Positions 7,068 to 56,474 of a stretch of 64,000 bases of DNA are shown here, piece after piece. The notes under the pieces are model-generated. The model had not been told where the DNA came from, searched no databases, and was given only the letters and a program-made list of their open reading frames with translations. Made by a program: the position numbers and the translations under genes. The stretch comes from Paenibacillus sp. W2I17 (GTDB lineage: Bacteria > Bacillota > Bacilli > Paenibacillales > Paenibacillaceae), in contig NZ_JAUSXM010000001.1 of assembly GCF_030815985.1 (NCBI RefSeq), forward strand, positions 3,968,001 through 4,032,000. Reading direction: 5' to 3'. The number at the start of each line of letters is the position of its first letter. Within the stretch, counting starts at the first letter, position 1.

Positions 7068-7260
7068 TAACGAATCTGGGGCGTCTTATTCAAGGTTTTG
7101 AAGTGCTCGCAAAAATCTAGGGAATCTCAGGCACGCTATGTTTGAATAAATAGCTGTTTATAGCATTTTTATCAGAGTAATTTGGGAAATAACGTGTCTG
7201 ATGTTCCTTACATTTTAGCAAGAGGATCTTATAGCCAAATAAGATGTCCTGTGTTCCTTA
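7068..7260. repeat. 193-bp four-unit inverted repeat element, copy A
   Basis: Two forward units (starting 7068 and 7118) and two reverse units (ending 7210 and 7260) of the TAACGAATC...ACGTTATT motif. In this copy the right-hand units read GTTCCTTA rather than GTTCGTTA. The spacing (50/93/50 bp) is identical to copies B and C. It lies between two convergent genes. Confidence 0.85.
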
Positions 7261-7285
7261 GAAAATCCTCAGACCATCTGCCAGA

Positions 7286-7687
7286 TCAACCAGCTTGGGT
7301 TTCATCTTCAACGATCGCTTCCACTTCAATCTCAACCATCAACAAGGGATCAATGAGTGCGCTAACTTCAACCATTGTGGCTACAGGCTGGATCTGTCCA
7401 AAAAATTCACCGTGTGCCTTGCCAACTTCCTCCCATCTGGAGATATCGGTCACATACATCCGGGTTCTCACTACATGCGACATATCAGCCCCCAGTTCTT
7501 TCAGTGCATTCTCGATCGTCTGCAAAACGAACCTTGTCTGTGCATACGGATCACCCGCCCCAACAACTACACCATCTTGCATCGCGGTTGTACCCGCCAC
7601 TTCAATTCGGTTCCCTACACGGATGGCACGGCAATATCCCACCAACGGTTCCCATGGGGAGCCGGTAAAAACCTGCTGTCTGCTCAT
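7286..7687 (-). CDS. RidA/YjgF/YER057c/UK114-like protein
   Basis: The 133-aa single-domain protein matches the RidA superfamily by length and by GNRIEVAGTTAMQDGVVVGAGDPYAQTRFVLQTIENALKELGAD and VRTRMYVTDISRWEEVGKAHGEFFG. RidA enzymes hydrolyse reactive enamine/imine intermediates. This protein belongs to a divergent subgroup: the late segment reads PVATMVEVSALIDPLLMVEIEVEAI, which lacks the classical RSAVEVA arginine present in the second RidA of this window (28350-28724). Deaminase activity is therefore uncertain. The start has a GAGGGA site. Confidence 0.88.
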   Translation of the reverse strand: MSRQQVFTGSPWEPLVGYCRAIRVGNRIEVAGTTAMQDGVVVGAGDPYAQTRFVLQTIENALKELGADMSHVVRTRMYVTDISRWEEVGKAHGEFFGQIQPVATMVEVSALIDPLLMVEIEVEAIVEDETQAG

Positions 7688-7813
7688 TCTCTCGTCCCTC
7701 GCTTTGGTTGAATTTGTTTCTTCGGATTAAACATGAATTATATCAGTCTATCATCATTTAAAACAATGGAATGAAGTTTAATACCACCTTAATTCCAACA
7801 TCATTTTTGAACA

Positions 7814-7876
7814 GAAAAAAATCCCCTGAATGACTGCCCATTGGTTAGATCAAAGACGGTTCATTCGGGGATTTAT
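7814..7876 (-). terminator. Intrinsic terminator of the VanY-type lipoprotein gene
   Basis: On the minus strand, AAATCCCCGAATGA pairs with TCATTCAGGGGATTT and is followed by a T-run. Confidence 0.85.
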
Positions 7877-7921
7877 GAGAATTAGTATTAGTATCTTTTC
7901 TTTAAGGATAAAACATCCGCA

Positions 7922-8890
7922 TTACAACTTGATATTAGCCTCATCGAAGTATTCTTCCAGAGTTAACCCACTCTTCGCCACATCCGGTGCCAAATCTGTA
8001 CCGATGTACCGGATATGCCAAGGCTCATAGACGTAACCTGTGGTATCTTCCTCACCTTGCAGATAACGGATGACATATCCGTATTCTGCAGCGTGTTCAG
8101 CCAACCACTGGCCTTCCTTCGATGTGCCAAATACCTCTTCCAACACATTGCCCACACTCGGGCTGGATACATCAATGGCAAGACCGGTCTGATGTTCGCT
8201 TCGGCCTGGCACAGAGCTCACGCGATCCGTGTATTCTTGACCTTTGGTTTTGACATTATTGTTATAGATGGATACCTGACGCTGATATGAACGATAACCA
8301 GACACCGCACGAAGCTCAATACCATCTGCTTTTGCACCTGCAAACAACTTCTCCAGTGCCTCCGCAGCTTCCTTGCGCATATGCCGCTTCTCGTGAGGTT
8401 CGTCGAAGGAGAACGGTACATTCGGCTCCACCAGATCGTCCGGCTCGTACCCGTCAGGCAGACTCCGTTGCTTGTTGACAATGACGGTCATAGACTCAGC
8501 ATTGGTCACCACGGATTGTGCATCAATCGTCGTTTGCAGTGCGCTGATACTGCGTTTCTCCAGCAATGGATCTTCCGCTGTCGCCCCGTTACCATCGTCT
8601 GAAGAACCCTGCTCTTCGCCAGTTGAAGCATTCCCAGACTCGCTATCCGTGCCTTCACCGCTGTTGCCAGAAGATGATGTGTCATCCCCGCCAGCATTGT
8701 CGCCGCCCGTACCTTTATCCTCCGTAAAATGAACCGTTGTGCCGTCCGACTCCTGCTGTGTGTTACCTGCTCCATTCGGATTCTGGCTCTCCTCTGTGCC
8801 GTTCTGGCACGCGGTAAGCAATGCTCCGCATATCATCAATGAGGACAGCATAACCACCATGCGGCGCTGTCTTCCTGTAGTTGATTTCAT
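7922..8890 (-). CDS. D-alanyl-D-alanine carboxypeptidase, VanY/M15B family, lipoprotein
   Basis: The 322-aa precursor has a lipoprotein signal (lipobox LLTAC, Cys near residue 28). A Gly/Ser/Asp/Glu-rich linker of about 70 residues follows, then a zinc peptidase domain. Family motifs are visible: the substrate-binding SGYRSYQRQ, SEHQTGLAIDVSS (HxxxxxxD zinc ligands) and EPWHIRYIG (catalytic Glu and third zinc ligand His). It should trim terminal D-Ala from peptidoglycan stem peptides on the outer face of the membrane. The long acidic linker suggests it spans part of the wall. No van genes are adjacent, so a housekeeping role is more likely than glycopeptide resistance. TAGGAG precedes the ATG. 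Confidence 0.93.
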   Translation of the reverse strand: MKSTTGRQRRMVVMLSSLMICGALLTACQNGTEESQNPNGAGNTQQESDGTTVHFTEDKGTGGDNAGGDDTSSSGNSGEGTDSESGNASTGEEQGSSDDGNGATAEDPLLEKRSISALQTTIDAQSVVTNAESMTVIVNKQRSLPDGYEPDDLVEPNVPFSFDEPHEKRHMRKEAAEALEKLFAGAKADGIELRAVSGYRSYQRQVSIYNNNVKTKGQEYTDRVSSVPGRSEHQTGLAIDVSSPSVGNVLEEVFGTSKEGQWLAEHAAEYGYVIRYLQGEEDTTGYVYEPWHIRYIGTDLAPDVAKSGLTLEEYFDEANIKL

Positions 8891-9080
8891 GTAAAAACTC
8901 CTATCGCAATAATATAAATGTTATATAGTCCTCTGCGTGCAGTGTTCCCTGCGACAGTATACCTTAATTGGGAGCGAAGCTCCACCGGTAAAGACCTCCT
9001 TTAGAAGAGATCCGAATGAACATATACGGGCTGTACAGCCTGTATGATCGTTTTTTGGACTTTTAGAGCAACATGCTGCA

Positions 9081-9119
9081 ATAAAAACAAGCAGGGGTGA
9101 TCTGAGATCTCCCCCGCTC
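9081..9119 (-). terminator. Intrinsic terminator of the SNF2-SWIM operon
   Basis: On the minus strand, AGCGGGGGAGATC pairs with GATCACCCCTGCT, with a T-rich tail. Confidence 0.8.
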
Positions 9120-9130
9120 TGATGGGTGCA

Positions 9131-9943
9131 TCATTTGGTTGCCGGGCTGTCCGTCTTCTTCTGGACAGCCTGCCACATCCGCGCGGCTACACGCTGGCGG
9201 ATCAAATCCAGCCCTGCGGTGGCCGGCACGCCCGGCAGCAGCGCCGTCAGCTCCGGCAATGCCGGCGGCTTGCCTGGCTGCGCGAGGCGCACCTCAACGG
9301 CGCCAAAGCCCGGCCCCGGCTGGTGCATGGCGCCGTCCGCGGCAGCCTCGGCGATCCACTCGCCGACGGCCGCGCCGCCTTCGCCGCCCCGCACTTGCGG
9401 GCGGCCAGCTGTTTCCGCTGCGCGGCCGGGGCCGCTGGGATCATGGGCGAGTTCCTCCGCCCATGCCCCCAGCACGCCGGCGAGCAGCGCTTCGCGCGGC
9501 AGGCCGGCGTGCACCAGCTGCAGCAGCGGCTCGGCCGCGAGGCGCGCGGCTACGGCGCGCTCAGCGGCCGCGGCATGCGCGCAGCCCGGGCGGCCGCAGG
9601 TGCACGCCACGGCCGCGCTGGCCGTTGCTGCACCTGGCGAGCCCTCGGGCGCTTGCGCAGCCGGCAGCAGCCCCGCGAGCTCCTCGGACGCCGGGCCGCC
9701 GCGCAGCAGGGCGTACAGCGTCAGCGGGCGCTTGCGCAGCTGAGCCAGTACAGCCTCGCGCTGGGCTTCGCTCAGTCGCGCCGGCGTTCCCGTGACCGTG
9801 AACATGCCTGCGGCTGATCCGGTCTTGCCCTCAGCAGCGGAAGCGGAAACGGAAACTTCCTGATCCGCATCCGCTGCTGTATTTACTTCTGCTGTCCATC
9901 CACCGGGGGACATATGCAGCTCGATCTTCCATTTTTCACTCAC
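9131..9943 (-). CDS. SWIM-type zinc-finger-like protein, partner of the SNF2 helicase
   Basis: The 270-aa protein is Ala/Gly/Pro-rich. At about residues 113-122 it has CTCGRPGCAH, which fits the SWIM zinc-finger pattern CxC(x)nCxH; a leucine-rich helical segment follows (RLAAEPLLQLVHAGLPREALL). Genes with a SWIM finger commonly accompany SNF2 ATPases in Firmicutes, and this one lies 46 bp downstream of such a gene, so it is probably co-transcribed and may give DNA or protein binding. Base composition is extreme: the stretch 9170-9790 is far more GC-rich than its surroundings, which explains the many long shadow frames here. The finger is shorter than usual. Confidence 0.75.
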   Translation of the reverse strand: MSEKWKIELHMSPGGWTAEVNTAADADQEVSVSASAAEGKTGSAAGMFTVTGTPARLSEAQREAVLAQLRKRPLTLYALLRGGPASEELAGLLPAAQAPEGSPGAATASAAVACTCGRPGCAHAAAAERAVAARLAAEPLLQLVHAGLPREALLAGVLGAWAEELAHDPSGPGRAAETAGRPQVRGGEGGAAVGEWIAEAAADGAMHQPGPGFGAVEVRLAQPGKPPALPELTALLPGVPATAGLDLIRQRVAARMWQAVQKKTDSPATK

Positions 9944-9989
9944 AACAATCCCCCTTTCTCAACATCTATATTCCTCTGAATGTTCAAGG

Positions 9990-12900
9990 TCACAGCCACG
10001 TCTCACCCTGAAGAGAGATCAGACCACGCAGCTCATCATCCGACATCTCGGTCAGCCAATTCTCACCCGAACCAACGACCTGCTCGGAGAGTGCCTTCTT
10101 GCTTTCGATCAGCTCATCAATCCGTTCTTCCAGTGTTCCCTGACAGATCAACTTATGCACCTGCACGTTGCGATTCTGTCCAATTCGGAATACACGATCC
10201 GTTGCCTGATTCTCAACCGCAGGATTCCACCACCGATCATAGTGAACGACATGACTCGCCCGTGTCAGATTCAGACCCACACCTCCGGCACGAAGAGACA
10301 GAACAAACATGGACGGCCCCTCTCCTTTTTGGAAAGTCTCCACCATATCATCTCTTTGCGCCTTCGACACACCACCATGCAGGAAATAAGGTTCTTCCTC
10401 ATATCGCTGTTTCAATCTCGATACCAGCAGATCTCCCATAGCAACATACTGCGTGAAGATCAGAGCCGATTCCCCGTTATCACGGATGGCGTCCAGCAGT
10501 TCAAGCAAACGTTCCATCTTACCGGATGCCTCAGCCTTGCCGTGGTCTTTCCGATTACTGTCCGCCAGCACCGGATGATCACAGATCTGCTTGAGCTTGG
10601 TCAGGGAGGACAGAACAATCCCCTTCCGGGCAATGCCATTTCTGCCGTCCAGACCACCCATCAGATCATCCACCACACGCTGGTACAACACCGTTTGCTC
10701 CGGCGTCAGAGAACAATAGGATTTCAGTTCAAGCTTCTCTGGCAGATCCTTGCGAATATCCGGATCACTCTTCAGCCTGCGCAGCATGAATGGAGATACC
10801 AGTCGATGAAGCTCACGCAAGGATGCTGCATTTTCTTCGGATGGCCCCAGTCCCGTATACCGCTGGCGGAACGATGAAGCTGTGCCCAGATACCCCGGAT
10901 TGAGAAACTGGAAAATCGACCAAAGTTCGCTCAGTCGGTTCTCTACAGGCGTTCCTGTCATCGCAATACGATGAAGTGTAGACAGGCGCATTACGCTTTG
11001 CGCTTGTTTGGTACGGTAGTTCTTAATATATTGTGCCTCATCCAGCACAATAGTGGACCAGTGCAACGAAGCCAAATCCGGGCCATCTCTGCCTGCCAGA
11101 TGATAGGTCGTCAGTACAATGTCATGCGTCTGCGCTTCTGCCTGAAAATCATTCCCGTGCAGCCGTTGTCCGCCATGATGAATATACAGCGACAGATCCG
11201 GGGCAAACCGCTTCAGCTCACGCTGCCAGTTTCCAAGCAGCGAGGTAGGACACACAATAAGTGCAGGCAGATGAACAGGCTGCTCATTCGTGTGCTGATC
11301 CGCCGGGAATGAATCATCTGATCCATTCAACAGCTCATTCTCACGGGCTTCCTCTTCAGCTGCCTGGCGTTCCTCGTGTTTGCGGTCCAGCAGACAGGTA
11401 ATTACCTGAATCGTCTTCCCAAGTCCCATATCGTCCGCCAGACATACGCCAAAGCCCAGCTCACGCATCGCGGATAACCATTGGTAGCCTCGTTCTTGAT
11501 AAGGTCTGAGTTCACCGTGCAATTCTGCCGGAACCTGACGAGGCTCAATGCTGCGAAGCACCTGTCCATCGAGCAGGAAAGCAAGCATCCCATCAGATTC
11601 GGCACCAAAGACGGAGAGGCCCTTCCATGCGGAATCCTCCCCTTCATCCGCTGCCAGATGCAGCCATTCGGAGAGAGGCATGTATTGTTCTTCTTCTTTT
11701 TTCATATAACGCAGGACTTGGCGAATCTCTTTTGTATCCACTTCAATCCATTCACCACGGAACATGACATAAGGAACTGTGGATTCAGCGAGCGCTGCCA
11801 GTTCCTCCGCCGTGACCGGTTTACCATCCAGCATGGGCTCCGCCTTGAAAGCAACCAATTGTTCCATGCCCAGTGCCGATGTGGCTCCAGGCAACCGCTC
11901 TGTTCCCCGATTCAACATCTGCAGACGCAGTCCCGCACGACGTTTCCCGGCACGACTCCACCTTGAAGGCATGAGAACGGTTATCCCGGCCTTCTGCAAA
12001 CGTGGAACCGCATGCGTGAGAAATTCGAAGAAACCCTGCTGCTCCAGCTTAATTTCCTCCGGACGAGCGGTAAGCAGCGCTGTCTCCAGTTCAGGTGCCA
12101 GTTCTGCTGCTTGCCCGAGTGCCATCAATAATTGCTCTGCCGCCGAGGTATACAACACCTTCCCTCGGTCCAGATCTCGCTCTGGATGTGCCCAGATAGT
12201 CCGTGCAGGCAACCTCAGGCTTGGTTCCTGCTCACTGTCCACCCAAAAGCTTATTCCCCAGATCGTTTCATGTTCGCCCAATGGAGGCTCCAAGCGGAGC
12301 ACCAGCTTCAATTGGCCTTCCGCAGGTGCCATCTGTTCTGCTCCCACGATTGGCATTGACGTTCCACCAACTTCTTGCAGCGTATGAATAAACGCTGTCA
12401 TGTCGTCCGTCGGCCCTTGCACCGTCACAGGACGGAACATCGAGATCAGACTGTTCCACCAGAGTTCGGCTACTGGCGAAGATCCGCGTCGATATGGGGT
12501 GCGGTAACGGGACAGTTCACTGTCCATGCCCTCCAGTTCACTTGTCACTACAGCATGAATCATGCCACTCATGAATGAAAATAATACCGCAGCCCCTGCT
12601 TCTTCACGCGTTTCCGGTTCCAATGAAGCATAAGCTCCAGGAGCAGCCAATCCAATCGGAGGCATCGCTTCAGCAAGATCGCGGAAGCGTTCGATGTCCT
12701 CCTCCTGCTGCAAGCGTGGCCGCCATACGCCTGTTAATGTCTCTTGCCCGGTCCGTCGCCGTGCTCCGGTCTTTGCTGCGAATTCAGCCGATGGAGCAAT
12801 TGCTCCCCGCAACAGCAGCTCCTGTGTGAACTGCGCTGCTTTGATCCAGTAACGCATCTCTTCTCCAACCTGAATTCCGGCTGCATTTAACAAACGGTCA

Positions 12901-13193: not shown

Positions 13194-13293
13194 TAAAGTC
13201 TCCCGTCATCCCTTCGCATTGTTACTCTCCATCATATACGAAAATGACCGGATTTAAAAACCTTTGCCCATAAAAAGTGGTTATTTCAATGGT

Positions 13294-13457
13294 TAGGGCG
13301 TGTCTCAAAACTCGCTGAAGTGCATCTTTTACCCCCTTTTCGCCCCCCGCTGCGTCACTTTCCCTTGACGTGCCCCGGCACGCCTGCGGAAAACTTTCTT
13401 GCTTGGAACGAAAATTCGGCAAAATCTGCTTCCTTCGGAGTTTTCAGACACACCCTA
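13294..13457. mobile_element. MITE-like element with 26-bp terminal inverted repeats
   Basis: The left end TAGGGCGTGTCTCAAAACTC is matched on the other strand by TAGGGTGTGTCTGAAAACTC at the right end, with few mismatches. The ends continue inward to GAAG/CTTC. The element is 164 bp including flanking TA, so TA may be a target duplication as in IS630/Tc1-mariner derivatives. It has no coding capacity. It lies between the cheW terminator and the SNF2 promoter region. Confidence 0.7.
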
Positions 13458-13463
13458 GCAGCA

Positions 13464-13508: not shown

Positions 13509-13561
13509 GTAAACCGAAGGATTAATACTGAATATTGAAAGAATTACGGATTGTTATACTA

Positions 13562-14005: not shown

Positions 14006-14024
14006 ATCCTCTCATTCCGTATAA

Positions 14025-18688: not shown

Positions 18689-19987
18689 TTATTTTTTCAG
18701 ACTATCCCAGTTCTGTTGCAATGCTTCGAGCAATCCGGCTTTATCCGATTTGCCTGCAACGTAAGCCTGAATCGTGCTGCCATACTCTTGTGGAACCCCT
18801 TCAGGGAAACGGTTGAAGTTCCAGCTGAGTGTTTTATTTTCCTGGCTATACTTCATGATCTCTGTGGCGAGGTCACCCAGATCCTCTTCCGATGCCGTGA
18901 TGGAACTGAACGCCGGAATGAATTTGAATTCTTTCGTCATGTATTGTTTCCCGATATCCGAAGTTACGAGCCATTCCAAAAACTCTTTTGCTTCCGGTTT
19001 CACTTGGGAATTCTTGTTCACAACCCAATAGTTCGGCACGCCGACAAACAATTTGTCATTGGGTTCATTGTTAATTGGCATTGGGAGGATACCCAGATTC
19101 AGATCTGGATCGATTCCATCGATCTGTACTTGAGTCCAGTTTCCTTGTTGCATCATCGCCGCTTCTCCACTCGCAAACAACGTAACTTGCGTATTGTAGT
19201 CGGTTGTCAGCGGGTTTTTGTTGCTGTATTTCAGCGTTAAGTCGAGCAAGTTGATCCAGTCGGCGAACACTTGGTTGCCAGGAATCTTCTCCGTACTTTC
19301 GTTGAGTCCTTGGATGAATTTCACCGGATCTGCCTGATTTGCAAATGCGACGTTTACGTTATGATTGCCCAGCACCCACCACTCTTGATATCCATTAGAG
19401 AATGGGGTAATGCCTGCGGCTTGAAGTTTCTGTGCAGCTTGATCCAATTGTTCCAGTGTCGTTGGAATTTCGGTAATACCTGCTTTTTGGAAGAGGTCTT
19501 TGTTATAAATGAAACCATAACCCTCCAGCGCGAGCGGCTGTCCGTAGAGTTTGCCGTCTTTGGTCATTGGCTCTTTGGCTACTTCGAGTGCATCCTTCGC
19601 CCATGCTTCTCCAGACAGATCTTCCAGATATTCAAGCCATGTATCCAGCTCACGATAACCACCTACGTTGAAAATGTCCGGTTGTTCGCCAGCGGCAAAC
19701 TTGGCTTTTAATGCAGCACCGTAGTCACTGCCGCCACCTACAGTCTGAATGTCCAGTTTGACGCCTGGATGGGAGGATTCATATTCCGCTTTGAGACGAT
19801 TGAGCGCTTCCGCAATTTCGACTTTGAATTGGAAGATTTTAATGGTTTTATCTCCAGCAGCAGCCTCACCACCACCTTGTGCATCCGTGTTGACCGGACT
19901 GCCACTCTTGTCTCCATTGCCACAACCCGCGAGCATTACCGAAAAAGCAATCAGCATAAGCAACGTCAACTTGGTCATTCTTTTCAT
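18689..19987 (-). CDS. ABC transporter sugar-binding lipoprotein (family 1)
   Basis: The 432-aa extracellular solute-binding protein has a lipoprotein signal (MLAGC lipobox, Cys near residue 22). Carbohydrate-type features include IKIFQFKVEIAEALNRLKAEYESSHPGVKLDIQTVGGGSDY, the ligand-cleft AKFAAGEQPDIFNVGG and GEAAMMQQGNWTQVQIDG. It delivers a sugar or oligosaccharide to the two permeases encoded upstream at 20598-22315. No ATPase gene is present; such systems usually share MsmX/MalK. GGGAGAG precedes the ATG. It is separated from the permeases by 610 bp of repeats and hairpins. Confidence 0.95.
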   Translation of the reverse strand: MKRMTKLTLLMLIAFSVMLAGCGNGDKSGSPVNTDAQGGGEAAAGDKTIKIFQFKVEIAEALNRLKAEYESSHPGVKLDIQTVGGGSDYGAALKAKFAAGEQPDIFNVGGYRELDTWLEYLEDLSGEAWAKDALEVAKEPMTKDGKLYGQPLALEGYGFIYNKDLFQKAGITEIPTTLEQLDQAAQKLQAAGITPFSNGYQEWWVLGNHNVNVAFANQADPVKFIQGLNESTEKIPGNQVFADWINLLDLTLKYSNKNPLTTDYNTQVTLFASGEAAMMQQGNWTQVQIDGIDPDLNLGILPMPINNEPNDKLFVGVPNYWVVNKNSQVKPEAKEFLEWLVTSDIGKQYMTKEFKFIPAFSSITASEEDLGDLATEIMKYSQENKTLSWNFNRFPEGVPQEYGSTIQAYVAGKSDKAGLLEALQQNWDSLKK

Positions 19988-20067: not shown

Positions 20068-20260
20068 TAACGAACCGAGCGCACGTTATTCGCTCCTATT
20101 TGCACAGGTTCCCATACTAACGAATCACAGCGACATTATTTCGTCGATTTGGTCGAATTTTAAGGCTCTGACGCCGTTTTGTACCCGAATAACGTTGCTG
20201 AGATTCGTTACAATTTGTATTCCTTGATTATCCACCTATTAAGATGCGGTGGATTCGTTA
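20068..20260. repeat. 193-bp four-unit inverted repeat element, copy B
   Basis: Forward units start at 20068 and 20118 and reverse units end at 20210 and 20260. This is the best-preserved copy: the inner pair AACGAATCACAGCGACATTA / AACGAATCTCAGCAACGTTA differs at only four positions over these 20 bases. It lies inside the ABC operon between permease and binding protein. Confidence 0.88.
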
Positions 20261-20597: not shown

Positions 20598-21434
20598 TCA
20601 CCCTTTAACTGATCCAGCGGTAATCCCCTGAATGATATACTTCTGCATCAGCAGGAAGAAGATAATGATCGGCATGATGCCGAGCACAAGTGCTGGCAAG
20701 GCCAGATCCCATTGCTTCGTATATTGTCCGAAGAGTGCAAAGGTCGCAATCGGGATTGTACGCAGGTTGGAGCTTTGCAGGATCAGGGATGGTAGCAGAT
20801 AATCATTCCAGATCCAGAGTGTGTTCAGAATAATGACGGTTACATACATCGGTTTCATGAGTGGAAATACAATCCGGAAGAACACTCCATAGACCGAGCT
20901 TCCGTCCACCCGGGCTGCCTCCTCAATCTCCAGTGGGACGGATTTCACGAATCCGTGGAACAGAAAGACTGACATCGGTGCCCCGAAACCGAGATAACAG
21001 ATGATGAGTCCGCCAAGGCTATCGATCAGGCCCAGATTACTGGTTACAGTAACGAGTGGAATCATGATAGACTGGAACGGAATCACCATGGCGGCAATGA
21101 ACATGCCGAACAAAATCCGGTTGAACCGGGTATCGCTGCGAACCATTCGGTACGCGGCCATGGAACTGATCAGCACAAGCAACAGATTGCTGACTACCGT
21201 AACGATAAGCGAGTTCATCAGCGCCGACGGGAAGTTAATTTTCTCCCAGGCGTTCGCATAATTGCCCCACTGGAACACTTCCGGCCATGCAGCCGAATTG
21301 GTGAGCAGATCACCGAAGGTTTTGACCGAATTCACAAACAGGAAGTAAAACGGAACCAGGAATAAAAGTCCAATGAGTACCATGACAATCTCGGTTACAA
21401 TGGTACTGAAGCGGTAATTTTTCGTCGTCTCCAT
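20598..21434 (-). CDS. Carbohydrate ABC transporter permease, MalG/AraQ type
   Basis: This 278-aa inner-membrane permease has six predicted membrane segments, the first at about residues 13-33 (IVMVLIGLLFLVPFYFLFVNS). The EAA loop for contact with the ATPase reads EIEEAARVDGSSVYGVFFRIVFPLMKP. The C-terminus ends in QKYIIQGITAGSVKG, characteristic of the MalG-like subunit. Its ATG overlaps the stop of the upstream permease (TAATG), indicating translational coupling. It imports the sugar captured by the lipoprotein at 18689. Confidence 0.96.
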   Translation of the reverse strand: METTKNYRFSTIVTEIVMVLIGLLFLVPFYFLFVNSVKTFGDLLTNSAAWPEVFQWGNYANAWEKINFPSALMNSLIVTVVSNLLLVLISSMAAYRMVRSDTRFNRILFGMFIAAMVIPFQSIMIPLVTVTSNLGLIDSLGGLIICYLGFGAPMSVFLFHGFVKSVPLEIEEAARVDGSSVYGVFFRIVFPLMKPMYVTVIILNTLWIWNDYLLPSLILQSSNLRTIPIATFALFGQYTKQWDLALPALVLGIMPIIIFFLLMQKYIIQGITAGSVKG

Positions 21435-35065: not shown

Positions 35066-36049
35066 TTATCCTTTAATCTTGGCAGCCAGAATCATTGTAC
35101 CGCGCGGCTCATCTCCCATTGCATCCGGTTCAAGCGTGATGGCAACCGTATCATAGTCGTTGGCCGAATCCAATGTGTAATATACCGCTCCCGTTCCGTC
35201 ACGACTAAGGAAAGTACCCGCATTCTGAGGGGTATCTCCTTTGATCAACCAGACCTGAAAAGCCTCGTTGCCTTCCAGGTTCGGCAGGTTCTCAGCTTGC
35301 ACAACCAGGTGAGTGCCTTTGCTGTCAATAACGATGGTTGCGAGACCCTGAGCTACAATGTCCTGCGTTGCAGGATTCAGCTTCACTGCCTCGCCAGTCT
35401 GCATGCCCTGTGCGGGCTTCAGAGCTGATGCCAGCTGCTCCTGCAGCTGCGCATTCTGCGCCTGTGCCTGCACCAGCTGCTCTTGCGCAGCCGACGAGCC
35501 CGCCGCTTGCTGCGTCAGCGAGTCGATCCGGCTTTGCAGCTGCGCCGTGTACACGCCCAGCAACAGTGCCGCGGCCGCAAGGCCGGCACTGGCTATGCGC
35601 CAGGCGCTGCTGCTGCGCGCACGCGCGCGCGCTTGTGGCTGCCATGGCTGTGCCTGGGCAGCCTCTTCCACCCGGGCCGCAGGCACCGCCGTTACCGGCG
35701 GCAAGCCTGGCCCGGGCTGCGCCGCACGTTTGTGCTGCGGCGCAAGATCCTCCTGAAGCACCACGGGTGCTTCAGGCTCTGCAGGAGCAGCGGCTGGCTT
35801 CGCCTCGGCGCTCTCCTGCACGTGTCCGAGCACGTTGCCCAGCACACGTGCTCGCATGCCTGGCGGCGGCGCTACAGGTTCCGCCGCAAGTGGCAGGAAG
35901 CCAGTCACTTCCTGCAACTCCCTTACCTCCTGGCGGCAAGGTTCGCAAGTTGCCATATGCGCTTCAAACGCAGCCACTTCCTCTGCTTCCAGTCCGCCCA
36001 GCACATACATCGGTGCCAGATCAGACCACTCCTCATGTCGTTCTATCAT
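35066..36049 (-). CDS. RskA-type anti-sigma factor with zinc-binding N-terminus
   Basis: The 327-aa protein has residues 1-45 forming an anti-sigma zinc-finger (ZAS) domain, HEEWSDLAPMYVLGGL ... HMATCEPCRQEV (HxxxCxxC), which holds the cognate sigma factor. A Pro/Ala-rich segment is followed by one membrane helix (about 150-170, WRIASAGLAAAALLLGVYTAQL), a coiled coil of Gln/Ala repeats, and an outer RskA domain (about 210-327) with NLEGNEAFQVWLIKGDTPQNAGTFL. Its start overlaps the sigma gene stop by 4 bp (ATGA). The middle (35380-35900) is strikingly GC-rich relative to both ends. Confidence 0.92.
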   Translation of the reverse strand: MIERHEEWSDLAPMYVLGGLEAEEVAAFEAHMATCEPCRQEVRELQEVTGFLPLAAEPVAPPPGMRARVLGNVLGHVQESAEAKPAAAPAEPEAPVVLQEDLAPQHKRAAQPGPGLPPVTAVPAARVEEAAQAQPWQPQARARARSSSAWRIASAGLAAAALLLGVYTAQLQSRIDSLTQQAAGSSAAQEQLVQAQAQNAQLQEQLASALKPAQGMQTGEAVKLNPATQDIVAQGLATIVIDSKGTHLVVQAENLPNLEGNEAFQVWLIKGDTPQNAGTFLSRDGTGAVYYTLDSANDYDTVAITLEPDAMGDEPRGTMILAAKIKG

Positions 36050-36642
36050 GGATGTATGCCCTCCCTTCCCGCGTCCGGATGCAATTCAGCATCGGCCAGC
36101 AACTTTTGGAGCTGTCGCATGGCAAGCCTGACACGGCTCTTTACTGTACCCAGCGGAATCCCGAATCGGCTGGATACTTCCTGCTGGGTTAATCCCGCAT
36201 AATAAATCGATTCTATAACTTGTTGCTGATCACCGTTCAATTGGGACAACGCCTCTTTAATCCGGGTACCTTCCCATTTACGCTGCACTTCTTCTTCCGT
36301 GTTTGTATCTTCATCGGCATAAGCCGCCAGTTTCTCGTGTTCAACTGAAGTAGTCGCTGCCCCTTTTGATTTCCGCCTCAGCATGTCCACTGCAATGTTA
36401 CGCGTAATCGCAAACATCCATGTGGTCAGCTTTCCCTGTGAGGCATCGTAACGTTCAGCATTATTCCAGACCCGCATAAAAAGTTCCTGAACGGTCTCTT
36501 CTGCCGTCATGGGATCACCAACGATCCGGTAGGCAAAAGAATACACCGCTCGCTCATAACGGTCATATAAAAGCTCCAGTGCGGAGGCATCACGTTCCGC
36601 GATCTGCCGCATTAACCTGCTGTCCTCCATCGATTCAGTCAT
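36046..36642 (-). CDS. ECF-family RNA polymerase sigma factor
   Basis: The 198-aa protein has sigma region 2 at about 20-90: LYDRYERAVYSFAYRIVGDPMTAEETVQELFMRVWNNAERYD (core binding) and LTTWMFAITRNIAVDMLRRK (the -10 recognition helix). Region 4 is at about 125-180: LSQLNGDQQQVIESIYYAGLTQQEVSSRFGIPLGTVKSRVRLAMRQLQ, a helix-turn-helix for the -35. It is co-transcribed and translationally coupled with its membrane anti-sigma factor, so an envelope signal is likely. AAAGGGG precedes the ATG. Confidence 0.96.
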   Translation of the reverse strand: MTESMEDSRLMRQIAERDASALELLYDRYERAVYSFAYRIVGDPMTAEETVQELFMRVWNNAERYDASQGKLTTWMFAITRNIAVDMLRRKSKGAATTSVEHEKLAAYADEDTNTEEEVQRKWEGTRIKEALSQLNGDQQQVIESIYYAGLTQQEVSSRFGIPLGTVKSRVRLAMRQLQKLLADAELHPDAGREGIHP

Positions 36643-36855: not shown

Positions 36856-37147
36856 GTTGTATTAAACAACCTCATATGATTTCTGTCTTCTTTAAACCCC
36901 GGAATATTTTCTTCATGCTGCGACCGCAGCGAACTTTAAGCACAATTAACCTATGAAGATTGAAGAACCTGAATCACAATAACCCGGTAGTACAGAGTTT
37001 CACAAGATGTTCCCATTCACACTGGCGCGGTCATCGGAGCCGCAAGGACAAAAGAGAGGTAGGGCTTTTGTTGTTTTGGATATCACTTATTCTTGAGAAG
37101 ATTGAAAACATACACAAAGCACCCGGAATTGGGTTCCGGGTGTTTAT
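36856..37147 (+). ncRNA. Candidate small non-coding transcript
   Basis: The stretch 36643-37346 has no credible gene. Downstream of the promoter at 36821 there are two possible ends. One is ACAAAAG...CTTTTGT with a short T-tract near 37050-37076 (about 200 nt). The other is the perfect stem CACCCGGAA/TTCCGGGTG at 37120-37142 (about 290 nt). The 5' AAACAAC can pair with GTTGTTT near 37070, which would close the shorter RNA. The size is like that of 6S RNA, but I cannot confirm a family. Confidence 0.35.
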
Positions 37148-37346: not shown

Positions 37347-37539
37347 TAACGAATCCTGCACACCTTATATTAAGGATTTCTGTGCTATGTAAAATCTAAC
37401 GAATCTCAGCCACGTTAATCCATGTCACTTTATGAATATAGGCTCCAATCATGCCCAGATTCAGATAATAAGACGTCCACGATTCGTTAAACTTGTGAAA
37501 TGGCAAAAATTCATGGAATAGAGGCTGTGGAGTTCGTTA
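37347..37539. repeat. 193-bp four-unit inverted repeat element, copy C
   Basis: Forward units start at 37347 and 37397 and reverse units end at 37489 and 37539, with the same 50/93/50 geometry. It lies between the candidate small RNA and the YjcZ-operon terminator. Confidence 0.88.
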
Positions 37540-45353: not shown

Positions 45354-46328
45354 ATGGAAAGAGAACTGCTGGAACAAATCAACTTGTGGCATGAGCAGGA
45401 CCAATTCAGTCTCATTATTGAACATATTGAACGAATCCCCGTCTCAGAGCGGGATTATAATCTGATTGGTCAACTCGCCAGAGCCTATAACAATGACACA
45501 CGTTACCGCGAAGCCATTAAACAACTGTTGTCTGTCGAGGAGCAAGGGGTAAACGACCCGCTCTGGCAATATCGCTTAGGGTACGCGTACTGTTATATCG
45601 CCAACTATGAACAAGCACTATTGGCGTTTGAGAGAGCTAACGAACTTCAGCCACATGATGAATCAACCCTTGAATTTCTAAGTCAGATTCGACCTTTCGC
45701 TGAGAAGATGCGGCGGGATCGTCAACGCCATGAAGAGAATATCGCAGCATTGGAGCAGAGCGGTACACAGAACCATCTAAGAGCCGCTTCAGGGACTTAT
45801 GATCCCGCAACGTTCTGGGTACAGAGTGATTATGCGCAGGACAATCATGTATCAGAACCTTTTGATGAAGAAGAGATTTTGACTATTGAGAAAGAATTAG
45901 GTTACAGGCTGCCCGCATCCTATATTCAACTGATGAATACGCAAAACGGCGGTATCCCTGCGCTCACTGTATTTCCCACCAAAGAAGCGACTTCCTGGGC
46001 TGAGGATCACATTGCCATTTCAAGCATTATGGGAATTGGACACGATAAAATATACGCACTCGCTGGTGAGCTGGGAAGTCGGTTCATGATCGAGGATTGG
46101 GGATACCCCGACCTGGGGATTGTGATCTGTGATTGTCCATCCGCTGGTCATGATGTCGTTATGCTGGATTATCGCTTCTGTGGCCCTGAAGGTGAACCCT
46201 GTGTAGTTCATGTGGATCAGGAAAATGATTATGAGATTACATATCTTGCGCCGAATTTTGAAGCTTTCATCCGTGGATTGGTTGATGAGGATACGTATGA
46301 CCTGTCTGACGAAGAGAATGAGGACTAA
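45354..46328 (+). CDS. TPR and SMI1/KNR4 (SUKH) domain protein
   Basis: The 324-aa protein has residues about 30-120 forming two or three tetratricopeptide repeats (DPLWQYRLGYAYCYIANYEQALLAFERANELQPHD). Residues about 165-310 form a SMI1/KNR4 domain: FDEEEILTIEKELGYRLPASYIQLMNTQNGGIPA, then IMGIGHDKIYALAGELGSRFMIEDWGYPDLGIVICDCPSAGHDVVMLDY. SUKH proteins are often immunity partners of polymorphic toxins, but stand-alone forms exist and no toxin is encoded nearby. The phosphotransferase gene follows after 20 bp, so the two are co-transcribed. Confidence 0.9.
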   Translation: MERELLEQINLWHEQDQFSLIIEHIERIPVSERDYNLIGQLARAYNNDTRYREAIKQLLSVEEQGVNDPLWQYRLGYAYCYIANYEQALLAFERANELQPHDESTLEFLSQIRPFAEKMRRDRQRHEENIAALEQSGTQNHLRAASGTYDPATFWVQSDYAQDNHVSEPFDEEEILTIEKELGYRLPASYIQLMNTQNGGIPALTVFPTKEATSWAEDHIAISSIMGIGHDKIYALAGELGSRFMIEDWGYPDLGIVICDCPSAGHDVVMLDYRFCGPEGEPCVVHVDQENDYEITYLAPNFEAFIRGLVDEDTYDLSDEENED

Positions 46329-50994: not shown

Positions 50995-51117
50995 GCTGAT
51001 GTCAGGTTGGATTTGGCAGGTGTGGCAGGATATCGGTTGTCCAGTTGCGAAGAGGGTTAGGAGTATGACCGGTTATACCTGAACCTGACATCTAGCGACA
51101 AGGAGCTGAACAACCTG

Positions 51118-52728
51118 ATGAACTTCGATCCACTCTACCAACCGTACCCCTCTTACCGCGTGCCTGTGTATGCGAAAAAAGGCATGGTCGCCACGTCTCA
51201 GCCACTGGCTGCACAAGCCGGTCTGGATGTTTTGAAAAAAGGCGGCAATGCCATCGATGCCGCCATTGCAACTGCGGCAGCACTCACGGTGCTGGAGCCA
51301 ACGTCCAATGGCATTGGAGGCGATGCTTTTGCCCTCGTCTGGACCGAGGGCAAACTGCATGGCCTGAATGCCAGCGGCCCTGCGCCTCAGGGCATATCCA
51401 TTGAGGCGCTTCAAGCGGCAGGCTATACGGAGATGCCGAAGCTTGGGGTTGTTCCGGTGACGGTGCCTGGCGCACCGGCGGGTTGGGCTGAGCTAAGCCG
51501 CCGTTTCGGGCGGCTCACGCTGGCGGAAGCGCTGGAACCGGCCATCCGCTATGCGGAGGAAGGTTATCCGCTTGCGCCTGGGCTGGCCCGCCACTGGGCA
51601 AGGGCAGCCGAGGTCTATGCACGCCAGGGTGATGCGGAAGCAGGGCGTGCGTGGTTTGAGACATTTGCTCCAGGCGGGCGTGTTCCCGCAGCTGGAGAGA
51701 TGTGGCGCTCGCCGGATCATGCGGCGACTTTGCGCCAGATTGGCGAGAGCGAAGCGCGAGACTTTTACGAAGGAGAACTGGCAGAGCGCATTCATTCCTA
51801 TATGACAGAACACGGTGGTTATCTGACCAAAGATGATCTGGCGGCATTCCAGCCCGAGTGGGTGGATCCCATCTCTGTCTCCTATCGTGGATACGATGTA
51901 TGGGAGATCCCGCCGAATGGACAAGGACTGATTGCTCTGGCAGCGCTTAATCTGCTGAAAGGTTACGAATTCGACGAGAAAGAATCTGTTCTGGCGTATC
52001 ATCGGCAACTTGAAGCCATGAAGCTGGCATTTGCCGATGGGGAGAAATATATTACCGAAGAACGCAAAATGGGTGTCACGGTGGAGGAACTGCTGTCCGA
52101 GGTATACGCGGAAGAACGGCGCAAACTCATTGGTGATACCGCACGTGCACCTGAGGCAGGTGATCCACGAGCAAGTGGAACGGTCTATCTGGCTACGGCG
52201 GATGGTGAAGGCAACATGGTTTCCTTTATCCAGAGTAACTACATGGGCTTCGGATCTGGACTCGTCGTTCCGGGGACAGGCATTGCCTTGCAGAATCGCG
52301 GACATAATTTCTCACTGGACCCGAATCATGCAAACGCCTTGGAGCCGGGCAAACGAACCTATCACACCATCATTCCGGGGTTCCTCACCCGCGGCAGCGA
52401 AGCGGTTGGGCCATTCGGTGTCATGGGTGGTTTCATGCAACCGCAGGGGCATGTACAGGTGGTCATGAATACGATTGATTATCACCTGAACCCACAGGCC
52501 GCCTTGGATTCTCCACGCTGGCAGTGGACGAAGGGCAAAACAATTCTCCTGGAACCGGGGTTCCCACAGCACATTGCACAGGCACTCGCCCGCAAAGGAC
52601 ATGATATTCAAGTGGCACTCGATCCATCCCAGTTTGGACGTGGTCAGATCATCTGGCGCAACCCGGACAATGGCGTATTATGCGGGGGTACGGAAACCCG
52701 AGCCGACGGCTCGATTGCGGCTTGGTAA
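51118..52728 (+). CDS. Gamma-glutamyltransferase-family protein
   Basis: The 536-aa Ntn-hydrolase family protein has KGMVATSQPLAAQAGLDVLKKGGNAIDAAIATAAALTVLEPTSNGIGGDAF, the family's N-terminal signature. The likely self-cleavage nucleophile is a Thr in RASGTVYLATADGEGNMVSFIQSNY (about 350). PQGHVQVVMN and SPRWQW are near the C-terminus. No signal peptide is visible, so the enzyme is probably cytoplasmic, unlike secreted GGT. The substrate could be glutathione-like or cephalosporin-type acyl compounds. It starts at an ATG 12 nt after AAGGAG. Confidence 0.93.
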   Translation: MNFDPLYQPYPSYRVPVYAKKGMVATSQPLAAQAGLDVLKKGGNAIDAAIATAAALTVLEPTSNGIGGDAFALVWTEGKLHGLNASGPAPQGISIEALQAAGYTEMPKLGVVPVTVPGAPAGWAELSRRFGRLTLAEALEPAIRYAEEGYPLAPGLARHWARAAEVYARQGDAEAGRAWFETFAPGGRVPAAGEMWRSPDHAATLRQIGESEARDFYEGELAERIHSYMTEHGGYLTKDDLAAFQPEWVDPISVSYRGYDVWEIPPNGQGLIALAALNLLKGYEFDEKESVLAYHRQLEAMKLAFADGEKYITEERKMGVTVEELLSEVYAEERRKLIGDTARAPEAGDPRASGTVYLATADGEGNMVSFIQSNYMGFGSGLVVPGTGIALQNRGHNFSLDPNHANALEPGKRTYHTIIPGFLTRGSEAVGPFGVMGGFMQPQGHVQVVMNTIDYHLNPQAALDSPRWQWTKGKTILLEPGFPQHIAQALARKGHDIQVALDPSQFGRGQIIWRNPDNGVLCGGTETRADGSIAAW

Positions 52729-52786
52729 AACTCGCGTAATTTTTATATTAGGATGATCAACTTATCATCCGTATAGGGTGAAATTT

Positions 52787-52838
52787 TAAGGCACAAGAGA
52801 GATGATTCATGTCATCTCTCTTGTGCCTTTTTTGGACT
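52787..52838 (+). terminator. Strong intrinsic terminator
   Basis: AAGGCACAAGAGAGATGA pairs with TCATCTCTCTTGTGCCTT, followed by TTTT. Confidence 0.95.
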
Positions 52839-53095
52839 TTTAACGTCAGTAAACAACATACTGTAGTTATTGATGCTCCTTTTTAACCAGAGAAATGTAA
52901 AAATAATGTATAATTCATGAAAAATATTTATTTTTCCGTAAATTTTCACTACATACCATAAATCACAGTGTCTTTCTGACCGATATAGATAAAGGGAAAT
53001 CCTCACCATACGTGTCATCATGTACACGTCATTCCCTGGAGCTAAGGAACCATGCAAAACAGAAAAATGCGACTACAGAAATGAGGGTAACACAC

Positions 53096-54103
53096 ATGAA
53101 AACAAACAAGAACAGACGCGCAGGTCTAGGTCTCACCCTAATGATGATCCTGACGGTACTGATCCTGGGGGCATGTTCAGTCAATAATACAACAACGGCA
53201 ACAGACACGAGAACAAAGGTCGGGATCGTGCTTACGGAAGTGGGTCTGGGTGACCGTTCTTTTAATGATGCTGCTTTTGATGGACTGGTTCAGGCCAGAA
53301 ATGAGAAAAGTATTGTCTTTGACTATCGTGAACCCGGCGACAATGCCGAAGCTGCATTTGAAGAGTTTGCGAAAGCCAAATTTGATCTGGTTATCGGTCT
53401 GAGTGATGCTGTCCAAGCGGATATGGAGAAAGTTGCAGCCAAATATCCTGACCAGCAGTTCCTCATGATTGACAGTCAGTCCGAACTGCCTAACATTGCT
53501 TCCATTTCATTCAGGGCGGAAGAAGGAAGTTATCTGGCAGGTGTTATTGCCGCTATGGCTTCAACGGAAGATCATGTTGGCTTCCTTGGTGGAATAGAGA
53601 TACCGGTCCTTCGTAATTTCGAGCAGGGTTTTAAGCAAGGTGTTCTGGCTGTCAAGCCGGATGCAACCGTTGATGTCGTCTACGCAGGGGACTTCGGTAA
53701 TGCCGATCTCGGTGAACAACTGGCTGTACAGATGATTCAGGAAAAGGGCGCTGACGTGATTTACGTTGCTGCCGGTCTCACAGGCGTTGGCGCACTGACG
53801 GAGATTCAGAAATTAGGGAAATACGCCATCGGTGTAGATACCGATCAATTCTTTTTGGCGGAAAAAGCCATTCTTACGTCCATGCTGAAAAATGTGGATG
53901 TCTCTATCTATAATGCCGTTAACACGTTTGTTCAAAACAATCATACCTTCCCTCAAAAGGAAATCGTGGAGGGGCTGGCGGAGAACGCCGTGGGTCTGAC
54001 TGCTCTACATAATATCACGCTCAGTGATGAACAACAGCAAACCTTCGAAGATCTGAAAGCAAAGATCTCTTCCGGTCAAATCAAAATTAAGCTTGATCAA
54101 TAA
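53096..54103 (+). CDS. BMP-family (PnrA-like) substrate-binding lipoprotein
   Basis: The 335-aa protein has lipobox LILGAC (Cys near 25). The mature part matches the basic membrane protein / nucleoside-binding family: [62 protein letters not shown] and IGVDTDQF. PnrA/Bmp proteins bind purine nucleosides for ABC import. Here no permease or ATPase follows; the next gene, 26 bp on, is a chemoreceptor. The start is set at MKTNKN (53096), after GAGGG; an in-frame extension to 53012 lacks a site. Confidence 0.93.
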
Positions 54104-54129
54104 CCCATCGGATACGAGGAGGTACGCAC

Positions 54130-55782
54130 ATGAAACTACAGGGAAAACTGATACTTAATGCTCTAATTTCACTACTTCTATGCCTTGTGCTAGTCGCTTA
54201 TATCATCATGCAATTGCTCAACATGAATGCCAAAAATCAAAATCTGGTACCCGCCATGCTCAAGGTGAGTGAACTGAACGCCAATCAGATTCAGACCCAG
54301 CAGGCGCTGGACGTCTACTCATTCTCCATGACAGCAGGAAACCAGGACGCCGTACTTCGCTTGCTGGATGAAGGCCAAACGATGATTCAGGAGCTTACGG
54401 ACGGATTACTCGAAACGGATCAGCAGTTACAACTTATTCAGTCCATCGAGACGAAGTTAACAGCTCTCAACGAGGGAGCCACCGAAGCGATGAGCGCGAT
54501 GAACAGTGCGGAAGCGAAACGTTACAGCACTCGGGTTCGGGGCATACAGAATGATATCTATTCGTTAGATGAGATGACTCGGGATCGTTATGATCAATAC
54601 ACCGTTGATTTGGAACATGACATTCAGCAAACGTGGCAAACCGCTCTGGTAGGAGCCATCGTATTGCTCGTCGCCGTAATGCTGTTTAATATGTATACTT
54701 CACGTCAGATCGCCAAGCGTATTCGAACACTCAAAGACGCCGCGGGACAAATTGCGGACGGTGACCTGACCGGACAATTACCGGAAGCTCGGGGCAAAGA
54801 TGAACTCGATGACCTGAGTCGCTCCTTCGGTATCATGACTCATAATATCCGCGGCATTATTCAATCGATTGGTGAAGCGGGTCATCGTGTCGATCTGATG
54901 GCGCAAGATATTGACCGTGGCAATGATACGGCCCAAGCGATTGTGCAGCAAGTATCCCGCACCACGGAGGAACTGTCGATTGGCAGTCAAAAGATTGCCG
55001 AGGATCTGAGTGAAACGGTGATGGTTGTGGACAAAATGCAGTCTACTTTCAATAGCAATCTGGAGGCCACTTCCCAATCGGTGATCGATGGTCGTGAAGT
55101 ATTAACTACCGTTGAGGAAGGTAATAAGGCTGTAGCGGAGCAACTCCGCCTGGCCGAAGTAAATCGTATGGCGATGTCCGAGGTGGAACAAACGGTGCGG
55201 GAACTGGAAGAAAGCGCGGTTCGAATCACTACAATGACGGCATATGTATCAGAGATTGCCAAACAAACGACTATGCTCTCGTTAAATGCCTCCATAGAGG
55301 CTGCTCGCGCTGGAGAAGCCGGACGTGGCTTCGCTGTTGTTGCGGGCGAGGTGAACAAACTCGCCGAACAATCTGCGCAATCGGTCAAACATATCTATGC
55401 GGCTGTGGGCGAGATCACAACCTCCATGGATAAGGTGAAGAACTCTGTAGCACAGAGCATGCAGTTATTCGGCGAACAGGAACAAGCCACTGGCCAGACT
55501 CGCGAATCTTTCTCTGCCATTCGTGAAAGTGTGGAACGCATTAGTACAGGTATCCATCAGCTTGCTGAGGACATGCAACACTCCAATGAACTCAGTACAC
55601 AGGTGCAACAGGCCATCGAAAATATCAGTGCCATCACCGAGCAGTCGGCTGCCAGCAGTGAAGAGATCACCGCCTCCACGTCGGAACAACAACGTTCCTT
55701 CGCTGATGCAAGTATCAAGGTGAAGTCATTGCGAGATATCAGTGCAGAGATGCATCAGGAACTGCTGCGATTCAGGCTGTAA
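54130..55782 (+). CDS. Methyl-accepting chemotaxis protein
   Basis: The 550-aa membrane chemoreceptor has TM1 at about 7-29 and a four-helix-bundle sensor at about 30-170. TM2 is near 178-196 ([17 protein letters not shown]), followed by HAMP ([23 protein letters not shown]). The cytoplasmic signalling coil has hairpin tip [41 protein letters not shown], which contacts CheW/CheA. It follows the BMP lipoprotein with 26 bp between, so the lipoprotein probably presents its ligand to this receptor. AGGAGG precedes the ATG. Confidence 0.96.
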
Positions 55783-55913
55783 GCAGGATGCCGGGAGAAA
55801 TTCGGCCAGACATAGGTCGGATTTAGTTTAGATATCGTTTAGATGCAGATTTTAGGCAAGTTATGGGCAGGTTATAGGCGAGCCAGGATCAGGTAGCGTG
55901 AACATACAAACAA

Positions 55914-55962
55914 ATAAAGGGGAGCCTCGGTCATGAATCATGACAGGGCTCCCCTTTTCAGT
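55914..55962 (+). terminator. Intrinsic terminator of the BMP-chemoreceptor operon
   Basis: AAGGGGAGCC..TCATGA pairs with TCATGA..GGCTCCCCTT, with TTT following. Confidence 0.92.
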
Positions 55963-56045
55963 AACTAATCGTTGTTCCATCTAACCATTAATTCGTTTCA
56001 AAGATATGAAAGTATAAAGATTGAACTAAACATTTACACAAAACA

Positions 56046-56220
56046 GAGAGGACAGAAAGAACCTGAAGAAGCGGAGCTAAAAGCTTCTTGAAAGAAAGCT
56101 GGTTCGGAAGCGTACGCTATCCCCGGATTCTCCACTTTATAAAAGGAATAAAAAACTGGGGATAACAGCGATCGGAAGATTTTTCTGTCACCAGAGTGCC
56201 CAGTGTAAATATTCTTTAGT
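56046..56220. repeat. Dispersed repeat family 2, copy 2
   Basis: About 175 bp similar to 43934-44127 over most of its length. It carries the same GAAGAAGCGGAGCTAAAAGC and GGGGATAACAGCGATCGGAAG blocks. Here it precedes no gene start. Confidence 0.8.
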
Positions 56221-56280
56221 TCAACTTATATAGATAACAAGTTTAGATAACAAGGCATCAGCGTTTCAGATCCAAACGTT

Positions 56281-56474
56281 TAACGAACCGTGCAAACCTT
56301 ATTGGGCCATTAATTGCAGATTATAAAATCTAATGAATCTCAGGCACTCTATTCCCTAATTTAGTCCGGTTTTTCAAGTGTTTTCTCTGAAATACACAGA
56401 AATAACGTGGATGAGATTCGTTAGCTTTTGCTCCTCGATATAAAACCGTGGCATAAGGTGTATCAGGTTCGTTA
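56281..56474. repeat. 194-bp four-unit inverted repeat element, copy D
   Basis: Forward units start at 56281 and 56331 and reverse units end at 56423 and 56474. Spacing is 50/93/51. It lies between the chemoreceptor and nnr genes, which are convergent. Confidence 0.88.

Follow-up and report, generated by a model that had tools for sequence, protein, structure and literature searches.

The question raised by the DNA stretch studied here is what kind of element occurs in it four times as a 193-bp intergenic array of repeat units. The stretch, hereafter the window, comprises 64,000 nucleotides of Paenibacillus sp. W2I17 (contig NZ_JAUSXM010000001.1, positions 3,968,001 to 4,032,000; G000:C1:3968001-4032000 in our numbering, G000 being this single-contig genome of 7.0 Mb). 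An initial annotation had reported four copies, here named A to D, with a fixed order and spacing of their units, and all four were verified in the window. Each copy contains two forward units followed by two reverse units (F1-F2-R1-R2), whose starts are offset by 50/70/50 bp in copies A to C and by 50/70/51 bp in copy D. The units are imperfect palindromes, as had been proposed, although their length is 23 bp and not 24 bp; they follow the pattern TAACGAAYCnnAGACACGYTATT, with a TAACG-N11-CGTTA core, and decay is visible in some units of copy A (TAGGGAATC..., ...GTTCCTTA). We consider it probable that the element works as double-stranded DNA, serving as the site of a single dyad-symmetric nucleoprotein complex in which it is bent or wrapped, and that it has an architectural role.

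The spacing of the units is preserved well beyond the window. At 232 loci, the nearest neighbour of a strong unit (>15 bits) lies at exactly 50 bp in 197 of 204 F-F pairs and 190 of 203 R-R pairs, distances that were not imposed by the search. Grouping of the units gave 234 clusters: 181 have the order FFRR, 22 are FFR, 19 FRR and 4 FR, and five of the other 8 are single units. This is the opposite of random spacing or mostly single units, which the initial annotation had named as the mark of a loose collection of repeats. Because the F-R distance of 70 bp was forced by the search at many loci, it was re-tested with a free inner gap of 50-80 bp in nine genomes, chosen mostly for having F-F pairs with few or no F-R pairs at 70 bp. 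The 61 elements obtained, from seven of the nine genomes, have inner distances of 59 (4), 60 (42), 61 (2), 68 (1), 69 (5) or 70 bp (7), and none falls outside 59-61 or 68-70. The two inner classes, class-60 and class-70, thus differ by one helical turn. All elements of G010 (21) and G011 (22) are at 59-61; these two genomes look closely related, with many near-identical elements, and when G011 is left out both classes remain among 39 elements. The outer spacing of class-60 elements is still 50 bp, with exact 50/60/50 offsets in 16 of 21 G010 loci and 5 of 8 fetched G011 loci, and most of the rest one base off. Strain W2I17 itself contains a three-unit class-60 element (L040, unit starts 1441, 1501 and 1551); elsewhere, L354 lacks F1, and L376 and L378 of G022 lack R2. 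An array of protein-type sites with preserved spacing, one of the readings in the initial annotation, is borne out by the outer 50/50 steps, the inner classes found with a free gap and the indels at orthologous addresses described below.

Some loci show other arrangements. An F R R R element in G006 (L049/L306) has R units 25 and 50 bp apart, a half-step spacing. A 59-spaced element of G010 (L363) matches in both flanks L090, L216 and L195, loci fetched for 70-spaced elements, and they are possibly one address with two spacing classes. Locus L015 carries two tandem elements (1451-1643 and 1760-1952), 309 bp apart and 82% alike, perhaps as the result of a local duplication.

The spacers (s1 to s3) conserve A-or-T character and not particular bases. 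In 43 non-redundant elements, A/T-rich patches lie at positions 30-33, 41-42, 46-49, 80-83 and 90-93 and at the mirror positions, with G/C-richer sequence between them, while purine content is flat along the spacers. The A/T amplitude computed from these spacers only is 0.099 at 10.1 bp; 200 shuffles within the spacers gave no more than 0.0225. The contiguous s2 gives a period of 10.30 bp (bootstrap 10.18-10.46), s1 minus its last five bases one of 10.06 bp (9.80-10.40), and the peaks of the half-element, units included, a step of 9.98 bp. No comparable periodicity was found in the 60-bp flanks. The projection on the A/T phase is positive for each of 53 elements, the same 53 to which the phase was fitted. 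Among the window copies, A (p 0.0002), B (0 of 5000 shuffles) and C (p 0.018) are in phase, and D, with its 51-bp step, lies outside the set.

If the units set this phase, class-60 elements should have an A/T-rich dyad. This prediction was recorded before its test, but after class-60 sequences had been seen, and the test loci were 40, namely 21 of G010, 8 of the 22 of G011 and 11 others. As predicted, the A/T fraction over the dyad ±2 is 0.61 in class-60 (n=18) and 0.41 in class-70 elements (n=53; p 5e-4), and for the dyad base it is 0.72 versus 0.32. Measured from the unit edge, the A/T peaks of the two classes fall at equal offsets.

At orthologous addresses, 58 independent pairs show substitution levels of 0.066 (units), 0.141 (spacers) and 0.122 (100-bp flanks), and 1.7, 4.3 and 24.0 indels per kb, respectively; since both copies had to be recognised and to have spacings of 49-51/69-71/49-51, the contrast is inflated and intact spacing is favoured in this set. 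An earlier set of 22 pairs, from which the L015 pairs were left out, agrees. The loci of copy C and of L027, a family-1 copy near dnaA, were fetched by neighbourhood and are free of this recognition bias. By eye, locus C aligns nearly gap-free through seven relatives amid large rearrangements of the flanks. For L027, the element has 1 indel in seven relatives and the flanks have 12.

The four window copies belong to a large family. On the W2I17 chromosome, the unit pattern with at most 2 mismatches has 52+57 matches against 3+2 for a reversed control, and the F2-N49-R1 pattern has 32 palindromic matches against 0. Grouping the unit matches listed gave at least 47 copies, and six more turned up later (53). 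A scan that admitted near-standard spacings only found that 38 of the 47 reach a 60-bit sum, 23 of them at exactly 50/70/50, 8 at 50/69/50 and 7 off by single bases; within these 38, L009 has no recognisable F1 and R2 of L004 is cut by an insertion sequence (IS). The remaining nine copies (L003, L011, L013, L018, L020, L025, L031, L032 and L040) are partial, interrupted or off-spacing. A full element was present in 25 of 27 loci fetched from G002 (28 matches) and in 13 of 13 from G003 (22 matches). Among 75 genomes of the genus, the inner pattern (F2-R1 at distance 70) occurs in 39 and the outer pattern (F-F at distance 50) in 44, each with 0 control matches; G026 and G053, both among the 44, rest on one match each, and the G026 match (L315) contains no unit by profile. 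In a sample of the order, 41 of 392 genomes match: 37 of the 68 that belong to the genus, and 4 of the 324 outside it, each of these four with a single match, and the reversed control matched 2 genomes; two of the four matches outside the genus were scored by profile (L235, L236), and neither contains a unit. At least 119 stretches lie in named genome records, including P. pabuli, P. xylanexedens, P. amylolyticus, P. taichungensis, P. tundrae and others, and among the matches listed 4 are not Paenibacillus. From these matches, the family appears to be nearly confined to Paenibacillus, with hardly any member elsewhere. A viral origin was rejected, as the sole matching viral contig has no unit >15 bits. 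The profile scans cover the loci other than L043, L044, L046, L047 and L068. Among the titles and abstract openings listed for open-licence papers in PubMed Central (PMC), none gives an account of such an element, which does not in itself show that it is unpublished.

Elements avoid divergent gene pairs. Element-bearing gaps are convergent in 38 cases, co-directional in 37 and divergent in 1, versus 80/223/106 for other gaps of 80-800 bp (p 6e-10), a comparison based on crude picking of open reading frames (ORFs) and on partly orthologous loci; in W2I17, 2 of 38 element gaps are divergent. Copies are also concentrated in the origin half of the chromosome, with 36 of 47 in W2I17 (38 of 53 with the six later copies, four of which are in the terminus half; p 0.002), 24 of 27 in G002, 20 of 22 in G003 and 20 of 21 in G010, where the origin was placed by Noc near the contig end. 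A single conserved neighbour gene was rejected, because four loci of low-copy genomes (G012, G015, G047 and G056) have differing neighbours. Noc was likewise rejected as the explanation, as it is present in 75 of 75 genomes and the elements in 39 to 44 of them.

Several observations indicate mobility. Two families of copies sit within longer units with terminal inverted repeats that resemble miniature inverted-repeat transposable elements (MITEs). The family-1 unit is ~340 bp long with GTGTCTTCAAAC-type inverted repeats as its ends, and some family-2 copies lie, by eye, in a unit with GGGGMTGTCYCAWAAG-type ends. In W2I17, 7 of 8 matches to the family-1 end pattern adjoin elements (control, 2 matches), compared with only 2 of 5 for the family-2 pattern (control, 1 match), with positions compared by hand; at copy A alone, the GTGTCTTCAAACTTGC end is within chance, 30 of 100 shuffles reaching 2 matches. 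CTAG-like bases are seen by eye at some family-1 ends, and no target-site duplication is visible by eye at the 193-bp boundaries. Among 231 elements there are linked families of 75 and 44 copies, and 35 elements have no paralog link. The known family-1 end motifs are absent within 500 bp of copy C, and copy D shows only an outer motif, TATATAAGTTGAACTAAA at 56215-56232, which is also found beside L001 and L027, both family-1 copies, and beside L091. Empty orthologous sites were looked for and are indicated by match coordinates at L027 and C, where 73-211 bp are left in G021/G016 compared with ~490-580 bp in W2I17. In addition, a 361-bp stretch at an unrelated address in G005 is a copy with 95% identity. 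The MITE-like flanks together with the apparent empty sites imply that the element has been mobile. The statement that it is not simply a decayed transposon therefore holds in part: the core spacing has been kept in place at many loci, whereas two families do lie inside MITE-like units.

The elements are themselves a target of a 1287-bp IS3-family element, whose OrfB matches transpos_IS3 (E 2.9e-100). It has 15 distinct insertions in 6 of 7 genomes searched, short partial matches not counted, and they occur in both orientations. Nine of the 15 are at a unit centre (6 of 6 in W2I17, one of which keeps half a unit, 1 of 2 in G002 and 2 of 4 in G005), with, where readable, a duplication of 2-3 bp at unit positions 10-12 whose copies are not always identical. 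The other six comprise one in a spacer, two within ~50 bp of apparent element ends (by eye) and three elsewhere. We considered and rejected an autonomous transposon with its gene in the F2-R1 gap, as both candidates (L011 and L032; F-R 1410 bp) are IS3-family insertions. In W2I17, none of the copies seen holds its own transposase gene in that gap; the other genomes were not searched for it.

On the evidence, double-stranded DNA is the level at which the element operates, and its anatomy is that of four helically phased anchor sites about a single dyad. That the DNA is bent or wrapped is likely; the cellular role as an architectural or topological site is the least certain part. In the model we favour, each 23-bp unit would bind a protein dimer. 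The four units are placed at whole turns of ~10 bp (50/70/50, or 50/60/50 in one lineage), so that all would face the same side, and the A/T-rich patches every ~10 bp in the spacers would let the 183-193 bp bend smoothly round the bound protein. Wrapping may occur on a multimeric protein, resembling DNA on a nucleosome or on gyrase, and one common protein would serve all elements. The element would then be an architectural or topological site located mostly at gene 3' ends, like repetitive extragenic palindromes (REPs) and bacterial interspersed mosaic elements (BIMEs), and commoner in the origin half; copies may at times have spread inside MITE-like units, many of them then keeping units and spacing. 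We offer only tentatively, and with more doubt than belief, a stricter version: a site-specific nucleosome-like particle with a dedicated protein, four anchors and 183-193 bp wrapped in phase, present at several dozen fixed addresses with a bias to the origin, where a whole-turn change would be the main change tolerated in the inner loop.

The inverted layout of the units had also suggested a folded RNA or DNA cruciform formed by pairing of F1 with R2 and of F2 with R1. In 53 elements, pairing within an element equals that with shuffled partners (F1-R2 z -0.5, F2-R1 z -0.6, s1-s3 z -0.8, within-unit z 0.6); F1-R1 and F2-R2 reach z 1.6 and 1.7, and self-pairing of s2 is below shuffled (z -2.9). 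Without covariation of F and R units, neither an RNA stem nor a cruciform is indicated, the spacers hold A-or-T and not bases, and at the Rfam gathering score the whole window gives only BsrC, outside copy C, and no family at the elements. RNA structure was rejected for the element, and this explanation as a whole is hardly credible. Ordinary transcription-factor operators of one regulon would account for palindromic, dimer-type sites, yet just 1 of the 76 element-bearing gaps is divergent, as are the 2 of 38 in W2I17, and the inspected neighbours are unrelated genes, which makes operators very improbable. A strong DNA gyrase site of the BIME-2 type, in which gyrase wraps the DNA and the units recruit it through another protein, fits the convergent context. 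We nevertheless regard it as improbable, because the period is ~10.0-10.3 bp and not 10.75 bp, the pattern crosses the centre whether this is A/T-rich or G/C-richer, unlike one fixed cleavage centre, and the units are highly specific in sequence.

Another explanation, kept alive by the MITE-like families and locus L027, is that the array serves transposition as a paired binding region for transposase or a host factor in MITE-like elements; wrapping would pair the ends of a 300-400-bp element, and conservation would reflect recent spread. Some transposon ends have a symmetric FF/RR-like layout, and the two families with different terminal inverted repeats, the 361-bp copy in G005, the apparent empty sites in G016 and G021, the L027 bases and the motif shared by copy D with L001 and L027 all agree with it. 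On the other side, copy C lacks the known end motifs and is nonetheless nearly gap-free in seven relatives with rearranged flanks, two families have this core in common but differ in their unrelated ends, and no W2I17 copy was seen to carry its own transposase gene in the F2-R1 gap. We judge a role in transposition unlikely, and prefer the architectural site, since elements avoid divergent gaps, whole-turn spacing is kept, and copies that lack recognisable mobile ends still persist.

A number of observations weigh against an architectural site, among them the selection already mentioned in the 38 of 47 copies and in the 58 pairs. No binding protein for the elements was found. Spacing exceptions exist (F-F 33 in L018; R-R 44 in L371 and R-R 54 in L373, both of G020), and the inner gap shorter by one turn shows that the complex is not rigid. 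The full 27-bp s1 alone fits 8.2 bp, and poorly (R2 0.40; bootstrap 8.1-13.4), and a fit across the separated spacers is ambiguous between 10.0 and 12.0 bp, the contiguous fits being used instead. Of the 18 class-60 elements in the dyad comparison, 16 come from a single genome, and the excess of W-to-W substitutions (W, A or T) is partly circular, because the same elements served to define the A/T columns. At L027, substitutions in the seven relatives number 73 over 1350 bp of element and 86 over 2087 bp of flank, so the element's bases are no better kept than the flanks. Among the seven relatives at locus C, one (G003, L251) has a 50-bp F1-to-F2 deletion and two have single-base insertions; deletion of a 50-bp period, as in L251, is a likely source of three-unit elements. 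Finally, the origin bias may reflect slower turnover in that half.

The element shares features with several known systems. Like the REPs and BIMEs of enterobacteria, including BIME-2, it has many intergenic copies made of several symmetric units in both orientations. Unlike them, it has a fixed four-unit geometry and phased A/T over ~190 bp, and forms no stem-loop judged by covariation, either within units or between F and R. Nucleosome positioning sequences have A/T facing inward every ~10 bp round the dyad, and the element shows the same ~10-bp A/T phasing about a dyad; it differs in being bacterial, in its four specific anchor sites and in that no histone was identified. Sites of the Noc, SlmA and MatP type are short single sites, multi-copy and biased along the origin-terminus axis. 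The elements are multi-copy and biased in the same way, but are four-site arrays and, compared with the distribution of Noc given above, occur in fewer genomes. Like MITEs, the elements are short and dispersed, and some copies appear to have terminal inverted repeats and empty orthologous sites; unlike MITEs, they have a core that is common to two families whose ends are unrelated and that also occurs where no ends can be recognised. Targeting of the unit centre by an IS3-family element has a parallel in IS1397 and ISKpn1, which, according to PMC1525189, target REPs specifically. A long, symmetric, phased G/C-A/T pattern, as in the element, is attributed to wrapping for the gyrase motif and the Mu strong gyrase site in PMC6379681 and PMC12393610. 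The element differs from these in its period of ~10.0-10.3 bp versus 10.75 bp, its length of 183-193 bp versus 130 bp, its specific 23-bp sites and its central composition, which varies with the spacing class where gyrase has a central cleavage region.

If the architectural explanation is true, wrapping sites would be written into the genomes of this genus in a form that can be cut, relocated and re-phased turn by turn, the chromosomal purpose of interspersed repeats such as BIMEs would become directly testable, and a so far unrecognised DNA-wrapping protein would be implied. The natural 60 and 70 spacing classes are a ready-made helical-phasing experiment.

Table 1. Coordinates of the elements, their units and associated features. 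Positions are those of the window unless a locus is named; scores are from the position weight matrix (PWM) of the unit.
Feature	Position	Strand	Remarks
Copy A, entire four-unit element	7068..7260		50/70/50; family 1, MITE-like flanks
A F1 unit	7068..7090	+	PWM 29.2 bits
A F2 unit, decayed	7118..7140	+	PWM 20.4 bits
A R1 unit	7188..7210	-	PWM 30.9 bits
A R2 unit	7238..7260	-	PWM 25.3 bits
Left terminal-inverted-repeat-like sequence GTGTCTTCAAACTTGC of copy A's MITE-like unit	6947..6962	+	common to family 1 copies
Copy B, entire element	20068..20260		50/70/50; family 2
B F1 unit	20068..20090	+	PWM 28.8 bits
B F2 unit	20118..20140	+	PWM 24.0 bits
B R1 unit	20188..20210	-	PWM 30.3 bits
B R2 unit	20238..20260	-	PWM 19.3 bits
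Copy C, entire element	37347..37539		50/70/50; address shared with 7 relatives; apparent empty site in 2
C F1 unit	37347..37369	+	PWM 26.8 bits
C F2 unit	37397..37419	+	PWM 29.6 bits
C R1 unit	37467..37489	-	PWM 28.7 bits
C R2 unit	37517..37539	-	PWM 18.4 bits
Copy D, entire element	56281..56474		50/70/51
D F1 unit	56281..56303	+	PWM 27.1 bits
D F2 unit	56331..56353	+	PWM 25.9 bits
D R1 unit	56401..56423	-	PWM 28.1 bits
D R2 unit	56452..56474	-	PWM 25.9 bits
IS3-family insertions	L011 1563-2849; also L032, L003, L004, L298, L282, L289, L296	both orientations	

In the window, copy B lies between the genes for an ATP-binding cassette (ABC) permease (20598-21434, -) and a solute-binding protein (18689-19987, -), and copy D between those for a methyl-accepting chemotaxis protein (MCP; 54130-55782, +) and a YjeF/NnrD-type protein (56672-58351, -). 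The BsrC small RNA (Rfam RF01410, 67.3 bits) is located at 36997-37084 (-), between copy C and a gene for an extracytoplasmic function (ECF)-type sigma factor (36046-36642). A lone unit-like sequence at 45638-45660 (15.3 bits) sits in an ORF, lacks a partner unit up to 175 bp away and is probably due to chance.

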